Assembly (NCBI GenBank): GCA_020831525.1
Contig: JAFIGH010000007.1
Coordinates: 1-64,000 of the forward strand
DNA from: Opitutales bacterium
GTDB lineage: Bacteria > Verrucomicrobiota > Verrucomicrobiia > Opitutales > Oceanipulchritudinaceae
Length of the DNA: 64,000 nucleotides
Direction: 5' to 3'
Of this stretch, positions 60,108-64,000 are shown piece by piece (the stretch's first letter is position 1; every line of letters begins with the position of its first letter). A program made the translations under genes and the position numbers. The notes below the pieces were generated by a model that saw only the letters and a list, made by a program, of their open reading frames with translations, was not told where the DNA came from and searched no databases.

Positions 60108-60914
60108 TCACCGCTCCAAACCGAAAAACGCACGCGCATTGGCCGTTGTCACCCGCGCGAGTTCCTCCGGGGTCACGCCGAACAGTCCGGCGAGGAATTC
60201 GCCCGTATCGCGCACAAAGGCCGGCTCATTGGGCTGCCCGCGGCGGGGTTCGGGCGTGAGATAGGGTGCGTCCGTCTCTACCATGAGCGCCGCCGTTCCC
60301 TGCCGCAGGGCGGCTTCACGCAGCGCGTCGGCGCTTTTGTTTTTGTAGGTCACGATACCGGTGAAGGACGCCCGTCCCCCGCGTTCGTTCAGCGCCGCCA
60401 CCGCTTCCGGTCCCTCCGTAAAGCAATGAAAAACGATCCGCGACCAGTCCACACCGCTCTCGTCGATCATGCGCACGCAGGGTTCGAAGGCGTTGCGCGA
60501 ATGCACCACCACCGGACACTCCAACTGGTAGGCCAGCTCCAGTTGGGCGCGGAAGGCGGCCGCTTGGCGCGCCTTCACCTCCGCCGCTTCATCGGGAAAC
60601 TTCGGCAAGTGAAAGTGGTCGAGCCCGATCTCACCGAGCGCGACGGGACGCGGCTCCGTTGCGAAAAACGAAGGCACCGCCTTCAGCGCGTCCTGCCAGC
60701 CCTCCTCCACCGAGCACGGATGAATGCCCACCGTCCAGTGCACCACCCCCCGCTGTTTCTGCGCCAACGCGCGGTACGGCTCCCAGTCCTCAAGGGACGT
60801 GCCCACGGTGATTACCTCGCCCACGCCGCGGTCGCGCGCACGGGCGAGGAAGTCCTCCACCCGGTCCGCCCGCATGGCCTTCTCCAAATGACAATGGCTG
60901 TCAATCCACTCCAT
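60108..60914 (-). CDS. tatD: TatD-family metal-dependent hydrolase
   Basis: The 268-residue TIM-barrel hydrolase has MEWIDSHCHLEK (the metal-binding HxH), VGIHPCSVEEG, VALGEIGLDHFH, QLELAYQLECPVVVHSRNAF, IVFHCFTEG and METDAPYLTPEPRRGQPNEP. TatD enzymes are 3'-5' DNA exonucleases linked to DNA repair and fragment clearance. The LGEIGLD segment carries the conserved Glu. The start codon is 55 bp from the left repeat array, so that array lies in its promoter region. Confidence 0.94.
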   Translation of the reverse strand: MEWIDSHCHLEKAMRADRVEDFLARARDRGVGEVITVGTSLEDWEPYRALAQKQRGVVHWTVGIHPCSVEEGWQDALKAVPSFFATEPRPVALGEIGLDHFHLPKFPDEAAEVKARQAAAFRAQLELAYQLECPVVVHSRNAFEPCVRMIDESGVDWSRIVFHCFTEGPEAVAALNERGGRASFTGIVTYKNKSADALREAALRQGTAALMVETDAPYLTPEPRRGQPNEPAFVRDTGEFLAGLFGVTPEELARVTTANARAFFGLER

Positions 60915-60969
60915 ACCCCCACACCCAACACCCGACCGCCCCGCAAATCCAGCCCCAAGACACAGTTTT

Positions 60970-61650
60970 CAACCCGTGCACCCTTCCCCAGCGGAGCACG
61001 GGTTTTCCAACCCGTGGCTGACCAAACGCCCACGGACAGGAATGTCCGTGCTCCGTTTCAGCCCGTGCACGCTTCTCCCAGCGGAGCACGGGTTTTCCTA
61101 CCCGTGGCTCGCGAAACGCCCACGGACAAGAATGTCCGTGCTCTGTTTCAACCCGTGGCTGACCAAACGCCCACGGACAAAGAATGTCCGTGCTCCGTTT
61201 CAGCCCGTGCACGCTTCCCCCAGCGGAGCACGGGTTTTCCTACCCGCGGCATGCCAACCGCCCACGGACAGGAATGTCCGTGCTCCGTTTCAACCCGTGC
61301 ACGCTTCCCCCAGCGGAGCACGGGTTTTCCAACCCGTGGCTGACCAACCGCCCACGGACAGGAATGTCCGTGCTCCGTTTCAGCCCGTGCACGCTTCCCC
61401 CCAACGGAGCACGGGTTTTCCAACCCGTGGCATGCCAACCGCCCACGGACAGGAATGTCCGTGCTCCGTTTCAACCCGTGCACGCTTCCCCCAGCGGAGC
61501 ACGGGTTTTCCAACCCGTGGCTGACCAGACGCCCACGGACAGGAATGTCCGTGCTCCGTTTCAGCCCGTGCACGCTTCTCCCAGCGGAGCACGGGTTTTC
61601 CTACCCGTGGCTCGCGAAACGCCCACGGACAAGAATGTCCGTGCTCTGTT
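60970..61650 (+). repeat. Left array of ~90-bp doubly palindromic REP units
   Basis: Seven full units and one truncated unit (about 61151-61200) follow each other with a period of 89-90 bp. Each has a linker (CAACCCGTGCACGCTTC type) and a core with two hairpins: CACGGGTT/AACCCGTG and CACGGACA/TGTCCGTG. The hairpins are enclosed by an outer inverted repeat GGAGCACGG/CCGTGCTCC, so a unit can fold as a cloverleaf. Loop and spacer bases vary (GGCTGACC, GGCATGCC, GGCTCGCG). Units 61061-61150 and 61561-61650 are identical over about 89 bp. The array ends 5 bp from the stop of the transposase gene. Unlike CRISPR there are no unique spacers. Confidence 0.95.
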
Positions 61651-61655
61651 AGTAA

Positions 61656-62324
61656 TCACCCGCCGGACAGCAAATACGCACCCTCGGGCAACCTCGCACG
61701 CAGTGGATTCTCGCAAATGTATTGCGCGCAGCGCTTCCAGTGCCGCTCGTTGCGAACGAGCCGGTCCCAATATTCCTCCTGCCAAAGTGCACCGGAGCGC
61801 CCCATCCGACGGTTAATCTCCCGCGCGGTAAACCCTTTCCACGATTTCAGGACAGACTCGAGCCGATGCCCATGAAGCAACCGGAACAGAACGTGAACAT
61901 GGTTGGGCATCACAACAAACGGCCCCATCACATAGCGCTCGCCATCAAAATAGCGCAGCGCGTTGCCGACAATGGACGAATTGCCGGGCACCCGCAAAAG
62001 GCACGAACCGCTCCCCTCGTCGAGCCACGCTTCCATCCGCCGCGAGAACAAACGGTGGTATTCCGCCTCGGTCGCCGCGTCACGTGGCGCCGGGTGCGCA
62101 CGCATCCAGTTTGCGCGCTCCCATTCCCACTGCCGGAGCCGCGGAGCGGGCAAAGCGTCGGCTTGCCGCCAAGTAACAAACACCCAAACACCGGCCTGTT
62201 GCCAATGCGGCAGATTGCGTTCGTGACGGTCGGCTTTCTCCGGGAACCGATAAAAGGCTGCCTCGTCACCTCCCGGTGACACCACCGGTTGCCGCGGTAG
62301 ATCCGGATCTCCATCCCCCATCAT
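61656..62324 (-). CDS. REP-associated tyrosine transposase (RAYT, Y1_Tnp/IS200-like)
   Basis: The 222-residue product starts with ERNLPHWQQAGVWVFVTWRQADALP, the usual RAYT opening. It carries the HUH metal motif as MPNHVHVLFRL (His142, His144), and GRSGALWQEEYWDRLVRNERHW with the likely catalytic Tyr185. The 43-residue gap between HUH and Tyr is close to that in E. coli TnpA-REP. RAYTs are single-copy HUH enzymes that cut and join REP sequences. Here the gene is bracketed on both sides by arrays of one palindromic repeat, starting 5 bp and about 53 bp from the ends of the gene. ATG at 62324 is doubled (MM), so the start is ambiguous by one codon. Confidence 0.93.
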   Translation of the reverse strand: MMGDGDPDLPRQPVVSPGGDEAAFYRFPEKADRHERNLPHWQQAGVWVFVTWRQADALPAPRLRQWEWERANWMRAHPAPRDAATEAEYHRLFSRRMEAWLDEGSGSCLLRVPGNSSIVGNALRYFDGERYVMGPFVVMPNHVHVLFRLLHGHRLESVLKSWKGFTAREINRRMGRSGALWQEEYWDRLVRNERHWKRCAQYICENPLRARLPEGAYLLSGG

Positions 62325-62377
62325 CGCACATCAAACGTGTGCCAACCTCCCTCTCTATGGCAAGCCGTTCCGCAGGC

Positions 62378-62935
62378 GTGCTCCGTTTCAGCCCGTGCAC
62401 GCTTCTCCCAGCGGAGCACGGGTTTTCCTACCCGTGGCTGACCAACCGCCCACGGACAGGAATGTCCGTGCTCCGTTTCAACCCGTGCACCCTTCCCCAG
62501 CGGAGCACGGGCTTTCCAACCCGTGGCTGACCAAACGCCCACGGACAAAGAATGTCCGTGCTCTGTTTCAACCCGTGCACCCTTCCCCAGCGGAGCACGG
62601 GTTTTCCTACCCGTGGCTGACCAACCGCCCACGGACAAAGAATGTCCGTGCTCCGTTTCAGCCCGTGCACGCTTCCCCCCAACGGAGCACGGGTTTTCCA
62701 ACCCGTGGCATGCCAACCGCCCACGGACAGGAATGTCCGTGCTCCGTTTCAACCCGTGCACCCTTCCCCAGCGGAGCACGGGTTTTCCAACCCGTGGCTG
62801 ACCAAACGCCCACGGACAGGAATGTCCGTGCTCCGTTCCAACCCGTGCACCCTTCCCCAGCGGAGCACCGGTTTTCCAACCCGTGGCATGCCAACCGCCC
62901 ACGGACAAAGAATGTCCGTGCTCCGTTTCAACCCG
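62378..62935 (+). repeat. Right array of ~90-bp doubly palindromic REP units
   Basis: Six units in the same orientation as the left array, with GGAGCAC starting at about 62413, 62502, 62592, 62683, 62773 and 62862. The same variant loops appear in new combinations. The last unit has a mutated first hairpin (GGAGCACCGG). The array begins about 53 bp upstream of the transposase start codon and ends 124 bp before metY. The gap to metY has no visible riboswitch. Confidence 0.95.
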
Positions 62936-63058
62936 AACTGGTTCCGAGGCACGCAGCGACGGCCTGTCGAAGGCCCGCTCCCGTGCGTGTGTCATCGTCA
63001 GACGGCGTATATTGCGTGCTTGCCCCCGCTGGCTGCCATGTTTCAATGCAAAGCGCTT

Positions 63059-64000
63059 ATGAAACTAGAAACCCTTTGCCTCCACGTCGGCTGCGAGCCG
63101 GACCCGACTACCCTCGCGCGCGCCGTGCCTGTACACCGGACGTCCTCCTACGTGTTCCACAACACGGAGCACGCCGCCAATTTGTTCGCCCTCAAGGAAC
63201 TGGGCAACATCTACTCGCGTATCATGAACCCGACGCAGGATGCGCTTGAGCAGCGTGTCGCCGCGCTGGAGGGAGCGCCCGCCGCCCTTGCCCTTGCCTC
63301 GGGCACGAGCGCCGTCTTTTACACAATCATCAATCTCGCGCAGGCGGGCGACGAAATCGTCTCCGCGAACAATCTCTACGGAGGCACTTTCACCCAGTTT
63401 GATAACATACTGCCGCAGCTCGGCATCAAGGTGCGCTTCGTCGATCCGCGCGACCCGGAGAATTTCGCTAAAGCGATCACGGACAAGACACGCGCCCTCT
63501 TCTGCGAAACGGTGGGCAACCCGAGCCTCGACATTTCGGACCTTGAAGCCATCGCGGAGATCGCGCGCGCCCACAAGCTGCCGCTTGTCGTCGACAGCAC
63601 CTTCTCCACCCCCTACCTCACCAAGCCGCTCGAACACGGCGCCGACATCGTCGTTCACTCCCTCACGAAGTGGTTCGGCGGGCACGGCACCGGCATCGGA
63701 GGTATCGTTGTCGACTCCGGCAAGTTCGACTGGACCAACGGCCGCTTCCCGCTCTACGACACGCCCGACACCTCCTACCACGGCCTGCGCTGGGGGCACG
63801 ACCTGCCCGAGCCGCTCGCGCCCATCGCCTTCATCCTGCGCATGCGCACGGTGCCCCTGCGCAACCTCGGCGCCTGCATTTCGCCGGACAACGCGTGGAT
63901 CTTCATGCAGGGCATCGAAACACTGCCGCTGCGCATGGAGCGCCACTGCGAAAACGCTCAGGCCGTCGCCCGTCACCTCAAGGAACACCCCGCCGTAGAG
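63059..64000 (+). CDS. metY: O-acetylhomoserine aminocarboxypropyltransferase (MetY), cut by the window edge
   Basis: From ATG 63059-63061 the frame stays open to the end (314 codons). It has the Cys/Met-metabolism PLP-enzyme hallmarks: LETLCLHVGCEPDPTT, RTSSYVFHNTEHAANLFAL, YSRIMNPTQDALEQRVAALEG, ALASGTSAVFYTIINLAQAGDEIV, ETVGNPSLDISDLEAIA, VVDSTFSTPYLTKPLEHGADIVVHSLTKWFGGHG (PLP-binding Lys in SLTKW). The LKELGNIYSRIMNPT segment and the GG-insertion after the Lys favour MetY over MetB or CGL. It makes homocysteine from O-acetylhomoserine and sulfide. About 110 C-terminal residues lie beyond the window. Confidence 0.95.
   Translation, partial: MKLETLCLHVGCEPDPTTLARAVPVHRTSSYVFHNTEHAANLFALKELGNIYSRIMNPTQDALEQRVAALEGAPAALALASGTSAVFYTIINLAQAGDEIVSANNLYGGTFTQFDNILPQLGIKVRFVDPRDPENFAKAITDKTRALFCETVGNPSLDISDLEAIAEIARAHKLPLVVDSTFSTPYLTKPLEHGADIVVHSLTKWFGGHGTGIGGIVVDSGKFDWTNGRFPLYDTPDTSYHGLRWGHDLPEPLAPIAFILRMRTVPLRNLGACISPDNAWIFMQGIETLPLRMERHCENAQAVARHLKEHPAVE

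Follow-up and report, generated by a model that had tools for sequence, protein, structure and literature searches.

A GGAG-headed REPtron with long tandem REPIN arrays in an Opitutales genome, located at a different site in a sister species

Introduction

The genes tatD and metY of an Opitutales bacterium are separated by a transposase gene which is embedded in two arrays of short repeats. A first-pass annotation offered two readings of this arrangement: an active source locus for the genome-wide spread of REP elements, or a domesticated regulatory array acting on the two neighboring genes. Which of these applies depends on what the repeats are, on whether they and the transposase belong together, and on where the same elements occur in other genomes. 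The locus also bears on how REP-associated tyrosine transposases (RAYTs) choose their REPs and on whether a RAYT gene can move. The window analysed here is the whole stretch of 64,000 nucleotides from contig JAFIGH010000007.1. The following features are relevant.

60108..60914, minus strand: tatD (PF01026), neighbor, outside the element
60915..63058, no strand: space between tatD and metY (only 180 bp, without REPs, in the congener G001)
60967..61650, plus strand: left tandem REPIN array, seven complete units and one 52-nt partial unit
61145..61196, plus strand: the 52-nt partial unit, which lacks the 5' part including the head of REP a and retains REP b
61315..61376, plus strand: example REPIN core, consisting of REP a GGAGCACGGGTTTTCCAACCCGTG, a 14-nt linker, and inverted REP b (GGAGCACGGACATTCCTGTCCGTG on the minus strand)
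61656..62324, minus strand: RAYT (REP-associated Y1/HUH transposase), 222 aa
62377..62942, plus strand: right tandem REPIN array, an 11-bp unit end (62377-62387) followed by six complete units
63059..64000, plus strand: Cys/Met metabolism PLP enzyme, metY-like (PF01053), neighbor, runs off the window

Results

The transposase is a RAYT

The gene between the arrays had been annotated as a RAYT, and a profile search confirms its relation to the Y1 transposases: the protein scores 31 bits against Pfam Y1_Tnp (PF01797), for which the cut-off is 23. The NCBIfam model for REP-associated tyrosine transposases (NF047646) is matched at 78.8 bits (E 3.6e-22), which misses the cut-off of 80 by 1.2 bits, and phmmer detects a weak but significant match to the TnpA_REP structure 4er8 (E 4e-4). 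The HUH motif (H142-V-H144) and Y202, the predicted catalytic tyrosine, are conserved in two relatives. The guide-binding motif reads WQEEYWDRLVR and is accompanied by H195. In the alignment to 4er8, residues W181, Q182, D187, R188, and R191 correspond to W94, Q95, E100, H101, and R104, positions which are listed as guide-recognition residues (PMC6006769). An AlphaFold model computed on a three-sequence alignment was poor (pLDDT 51, pTM 0.38) and was used only for the order of the structural elements; at this low confidence, it suggests that an additional helical stretch is inserted ahead of the HUH strand.

The Y1_Tnp domain is shared with insertion sequences of the IS200/IS605 type, and the protein matches the IS200 model at 23.6 bits. 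This is far from the cut-off of that model (55) and far below the NF047646 score, and a single gene copy contrasts with dozens of REPs, so that we regard an IS200/IS605 element as extremely improbable.

Five matches to the RAYT protein were found in its own genome, the next best having 50% sequence identity. A search of plasmids retrieved no close RAYT (best match 30% identity). The genome also contains 49 Y1_Tnp matches, mostly from a class of 340-360 aa which covers only the first half of the profile and represents a large expansion apart from the RAYT.

The repeat units are REPINs

The count of 13 full units and one partial unit given by the first-pass annotation holds for the two arrays, to which an 11-bp remnant has to be added. 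Its distances to the gene are also reproduced (5-8 bp at the stop codon, about 52 bp at the start codon). Units have a length of 86-91 bp, show 90-100% identity to a reference unit, and point in the same direction throughout. In complete units, REP a consists of GGAG followed by CACGGGTT-TTCC-AACCCGTG, with one- or two-base variants. After the 14-nt linker follows the inverted REP b, which reads GGAG followed by CACGGACA-TTCC-TGTCCGTG on the minus strand; its head is AGAG in three units and its loop has one extra base in four. An outer linker of 27-29 nt is conserved as well.

In the example unit, both REPs form perfect 8-bp stems with a 4-nt loop, and the outer 9-nt arms of the unit are exactly complementary. 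Folding of the 62-nt core in silico (-18.1 kcal/mol; z = -4.0 against base shuffles) bears out the two hairpins within an outer inverted repeat. The term cloverleaf, which the first-pass annotation had set against a simple REP, is less apt. Each unit is a REPIN composed of two different REPs in inverted orientation, because both carry the same four-base head at their outer ends; with outward-pointing heads and modules in tandem, the arrays conform to the description of REPINs and BIMEs. An Rfam search of the window gave no match.

REPs in inverted orientation are present on both sides of the RAYT gene, as they are in the genomes G001, G049, G273, and G023. In an Akkermansiaceae relative (L047, 4950-5010), a REP is read in frame just upstream of the RAYT and into its N-terminus.

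A variant REP form was encountered in some dispersed copies, in which the loop is swapped for a recurring sequence of 24-30 nt, GGACGGATGCGAAGCGGAGATGGCCGGAGAC or GTTCCGAGGAGCGCAGCGACGACAT. Loop-replaced REPs occur at L046 (2226-2280) and also at L101, L109, L117, and L131, and the right edge of the array in the window (62936-62970) resembles the loop insert GTTCCGAGGAGCGCAGCGACGACAT.

Growth of the arrays and sequence exchange between them

The left and the right array have two exact blocks in common, one of 122 bp (61362/62640) and one of 91 bp (60967/62747), and an exact 122-bp repeat occurs within the left array (61026/61529). In a tree of the units, those from the two arrays are intermixed. 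The shared blocks and the intermixed tree point to growth by block duplication and to sequence exchange across the gene; this exchange occurred after or during the expansion. The arrays may still be affected by short-read collapse or misassembly, although the units differ from one another.

Dispersed REPs and their co-occurrence with the RAYT

The first-pass annotation had proposed a genome search, with scattered copies expected if the locus is a source. In the own genome, 46 matches to REP b and 32 to REP a were found when up to three mismatches were allowed, of which about 36 (REP b) and about 19 (REP a) are outside the window array, compared to no match for a reversed control pattern. Dispersed copies occur as single REPs, often as inverted pairs, and as small tandem arrays on contigs C47, C72, C140, C150, and C151. 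Crude ORF calls, which over-predict in GC-rich DNA, cover 22 of 38 dispersed REPs compared to 85% of random positions. An exact 24-mer of REP b was not found in viral contigs.

Other tandem REPIN arrays of the own genome were located at C140:8774-9096, C47:33281-33465, C150:18042-18230, and C72:26249-26415; a RAYT relative was not found on any of these contigs. A diverged REPIN copy (C123:65862-65930) follows the right array at a distance of about 3 kb and falls just past the end of the window.

Among 388 genomes from the phylum, the joint REP pattern occurs 66 times in the own genome (G000), 24 times in G049, and five times in G273; it is found once in each of two others and otherwise never. 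Within the same set, G049 and G273 carry two of the three RAYTs most closely related to that of the window outside its own genome (56-57% identity). The REPs adjacent to the G049 RAYT are letter-identical to those in the window even though the proteins share only 56% identity. G160 has a similar RAYT (53%) and yet a different REP, so that cognacy holds by close clade only. Judged from sequence, this co-occurrence is what would be expected for an enzyme with its cognate repeats and, together with the scattered copies, favors the source-locus reading.

The module occupies different sites in two congeneric species

G001, a congeneric Opitutales MAG (SKLD01000064.1), encodes a RAYT ortholog with 79% sequence identity. 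The same REPs are present on either side of this gene and keep their orientation relative to it. In G001, the neighbors of the module are a porin-like gene and an ABC transporter gene (names assigned by ORF reading), while only a 180-bp spacer devoid of REPs separates tatD from metY. In the own genome, an 88-bp gap, likewise devoid of REPs, is all that separates the porin gene from the ABC gene. Each genome thus lacks the module, and any REP, where the other one holds it; the sites are reciprocally empty and the module has probably changed its place. DNA sequence identity between G000 and G001 is 80% for the RAYT, 86% for the porin gene, and 79% for the ABC gene; a RAYT value similar to that of the flanking genes fits vertical descent combined with relocation. 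This relocation may have been driven by the RAYT.

These data also bear on the proposal that the hairpins are a domesticated regulatory array which controls tatD and/or metY as terminator, mRNA stabilizer, or antisense element, with the RAYT being a bystander. The array does fill the space between two divergently transcribed genes, and REP hairpins of other bacteria can, according to the literature, influence the stability of mRNA. Nevertheless, tatD and metY persist in G001 around a REP-free spacer while its RAYT and REPINs are located elsewhere, and the same REPs occur at unrelated loci. We thus found no support for this proposal and consider it very unlikely.

The module might instead have reached each species separately, by horizontal transfer or by differential loss of two ancestral copies. 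The comparison covers two genomes only; in G002, REP matches are limited to three weak ones and a close GGAG-type RAYT is lacking, and the identity of the REPs with those of the distant G049, despite a RAYT identity of 56%, could reflect transfer. The similarity of the RAYT identity value to those of the porin and ABC genes and the lack of a residual REP at either empty site argue against separate arrival, which we therefore hold to be possible but somewhat doubtful.

Alternatively, homologous recombination between dispersed REPINs might have caused relocation and array growth with no involvement of the RAYT. Many dispersed REPIN copies are available as substrates, and long exact blocks are common to the arrays. 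However, a REP would be expected at the donor site and neither empty site has one; in addition, dispersed single REPINs and the co-occurrence of RAYT and REP are left unexplained. We consider recombination as the sole cause to be unlikely.

The GGAG head correlates with residues in the guide segment

Published REP heads are GTAG or GTGG (PMC2817692, PMC3733652). This canonical GT[AG]G head is absent from the foot of the hairpins: apart from one-base variants, the array in the window carries GGAG, and so do nearly all dispersed copies. An automatic search has been built on 66 families with GTAG/GTGG, other heads being reported for subclass 2.6 and class 3 (PMC6006769); since these lack GT[AG]G, such a head is not defining for RAYTs. 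In the literature searched, which was incomplete for key papers, a RAYT with a GGAG head is not mentioned.

Heads were surveyed for 164 RAYT relatives with flanking sequence, nearly all from Verrucomicrobiota. The 4-mers at the foot of stems of at least 8 bp and within 400 bp of the RAYT were counted with no head being assumed. GGAG was seen 116 times (5.8 expected), GTAG 98 times (2.6 expected), and GTGG 52 times (4.8 expected). The GGAG head thus appears to be common in Verrucomicrobiota.

A fixed rule assigned a head label to 85 RAYTs (33 GGAG, 52 GTRG). On a tree computed with the motif columns left out, the label changes five times, compared to 23-31 times in shuffles. For the first 32 labelled RAYTs, the top discriminating columns of the whole protein are 185, 195, and 188, which are in or beside the segment holding the GTAG-contacting residues of E. 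coli TnpA_REP. The remaining 53 labelled RAYTs served as held-out set (19 GGAG, 34 GTRG). The distribution of the three residues is as follows.

His195: held-out set, 18/19 GGAG and 0/34 GTRG; all 85, 32/33 GGAG and 1/52 GTRG
Tyr185: held-out set, 18/19 GGAG and 4/34 GTRG; all 85, 32/33 GGAG and 4/52 GTRG
His188: held-out set, 0/19 GGAG and 30/34 GTRG; all 85, 0/33 GGAG and 45/52 GTRG

The next discriminating positions include 42 and 48, which the model places by strand beta-1. Contacts to GTAG have been described in beta-1, around beta-4, and in the C-terminal tail (PMC8266576), and the agreement of our residue columns with these regions is suggestive. In an independent-pairs test, which offered two usable pairs on supported branches and five on all branches, significance was not reached because there are too few independent head changes; with only two usable supported pairs, shared ancestry could produce part of the residue association. 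The relation between head and guide residues would represent a testable specificity code, behind which there are only about five head changes.

A simpler rule drawn from the first 32 loci, that R188 denotes GGAG, failed in the held-out set, where R occurs in four GTRG-type and T in 12 GGAG-type RAYTs. GTRG-type RAYTs with the guide motif EYYDH (L273, L280, L289, and L316) are all associated with GTGG rather than GTAG, hinting that the third base of the head also follows a residue. The nearest paralogous RAYT of the own genome (L042, C6:9423-9974; 50% identity) is associated with a distinct set of repeats headed by GTGG, and this genome thus carries RAYTs of both head types (GGAG and GTGG).

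Discussion

Comparison with known systems

The locus is of a known kind, a REPtron with tandem REPINs, and is an unusually long example; its GGAG head is unusual, and the module occupies different sites in two sister species. As in the described REPtrons (PMC2817692, PMC3116915, PMC6006769), a Y1/HUH protein is encoded between inverted REPs, its cognate REPs are scattered through the genome, and a tandem REPIN cluster adjoins the gene. It differs by having GGAG rather than GT[AG]G, 13 REPINs with one gene, and different sites in sister species. The first-pass annotation had considered long arrays on both sides to be unusual. This has to be qualified: RAYTs have been described as always flanked by two inverted REPs, with about a third being in BIME arrays (PMC2817692), and REPIN clusters adjoining RAYTs are known (PMC3116915). 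It is the length which stands out, since the largest ordered cluster of Pseudomonas fluorescens SBW25 has four REPINs and one REP, compared to 13 REPINs here.

Group 3 TnpA_REP proteins from Stenotrophomonas and Marinomonas (PMC8266576) also have perfect short palindromic REPs, and the equivalents of their Q95, D100, and R104 are present in the window RAYT (Q182, D187, and R191). Both features follow the group 3 pattern. The window RAYT differs by Y185, R188, and H195 in the guide segment, by the GGAG head, and by a length of about 222 aa with the predicted extra helical insert. The GTAG-tagged REP superfamily, which includes Opitutus terrae (PMC3733652), is similar in its tetranucleotide-tagged hairpins and its host from the Verrucomicrobia, the tag being GGAG in the window. 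TIRtrons, in which a related transposase (TIRYT) is flanked by inverted repeats (PMC3733652), were considered and rejected: the flanks in the window are headed REPs and not long TIRs unrelated to REPs.

Proposed mechanism

From the observed anatomy, REP dispersal, co-occurrence, reciprocally empty sites, shared array blocks, and association of heads with residues, we consider it highly probable that the locus is a REPtron, a RAYT with its cognate tandem REPINs, in which the enzyme spreads REPINs, the arrays have grown, and the module has been relocated. By analogy to characterized TnpA_REP proteins, the RAYT would bind the GGAG-headed REP hairpin on single-stranded DNA. Its tyrosine would cut near the hairpin and the ends would be joined elsewhere, so that REPINs are copied and spread in the genome. 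Either unequal exchange or the processing of intermediates with several units could then enlarge and homogenize the tandem arrays, and the RAYT with its flanking REPINs has probably itself changed place between the two congeneric species.

The head would select a dinucleotide in the vicinity as the cutting site, as for TnpA_REP of E. coli, Stenotrophomonas, and Marinomonas (PMC8266576). In GTAG, CT has been assigned to A3G4 and CA to T2G4 (PMC8266576). Because GGAG retains A3G4 and loses T2, CT cutting should persist and CA cutting should be lost if the analogy holds, and CC cutting might be gained. A search by eye for a fixed CT cleavage site beside the REPs revealed nothing consistent on both REPs.

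We tentatively propose that a RAYT subfamily reads GGAG via His195 and Tyr185 with His188 being absent, and that the REPtron moves as a unit, contrary to the view of an immobile, domesticated gene.

Implications

Recognition by group 3 enzymes has been called unresolved (PMC8266576), and the locus presents a naturally occurring change of head for which only a few residues are candidates. Because searches demanding GT[AG]G would miss the GGAG group, REPs from Verrucomicrobiota are probably undercounted. According to earlier descriptions, RAYTs are single-copy genes with vertical inheritance and without self-copying (PMC8049555), and REPtrons cannot self-propagate (PMC3733652). Since self-copying and self-propagation have thus been denied, the changed place deserves attention: in the sister genomes, the module is found at two separate positions which are otherwise clean.
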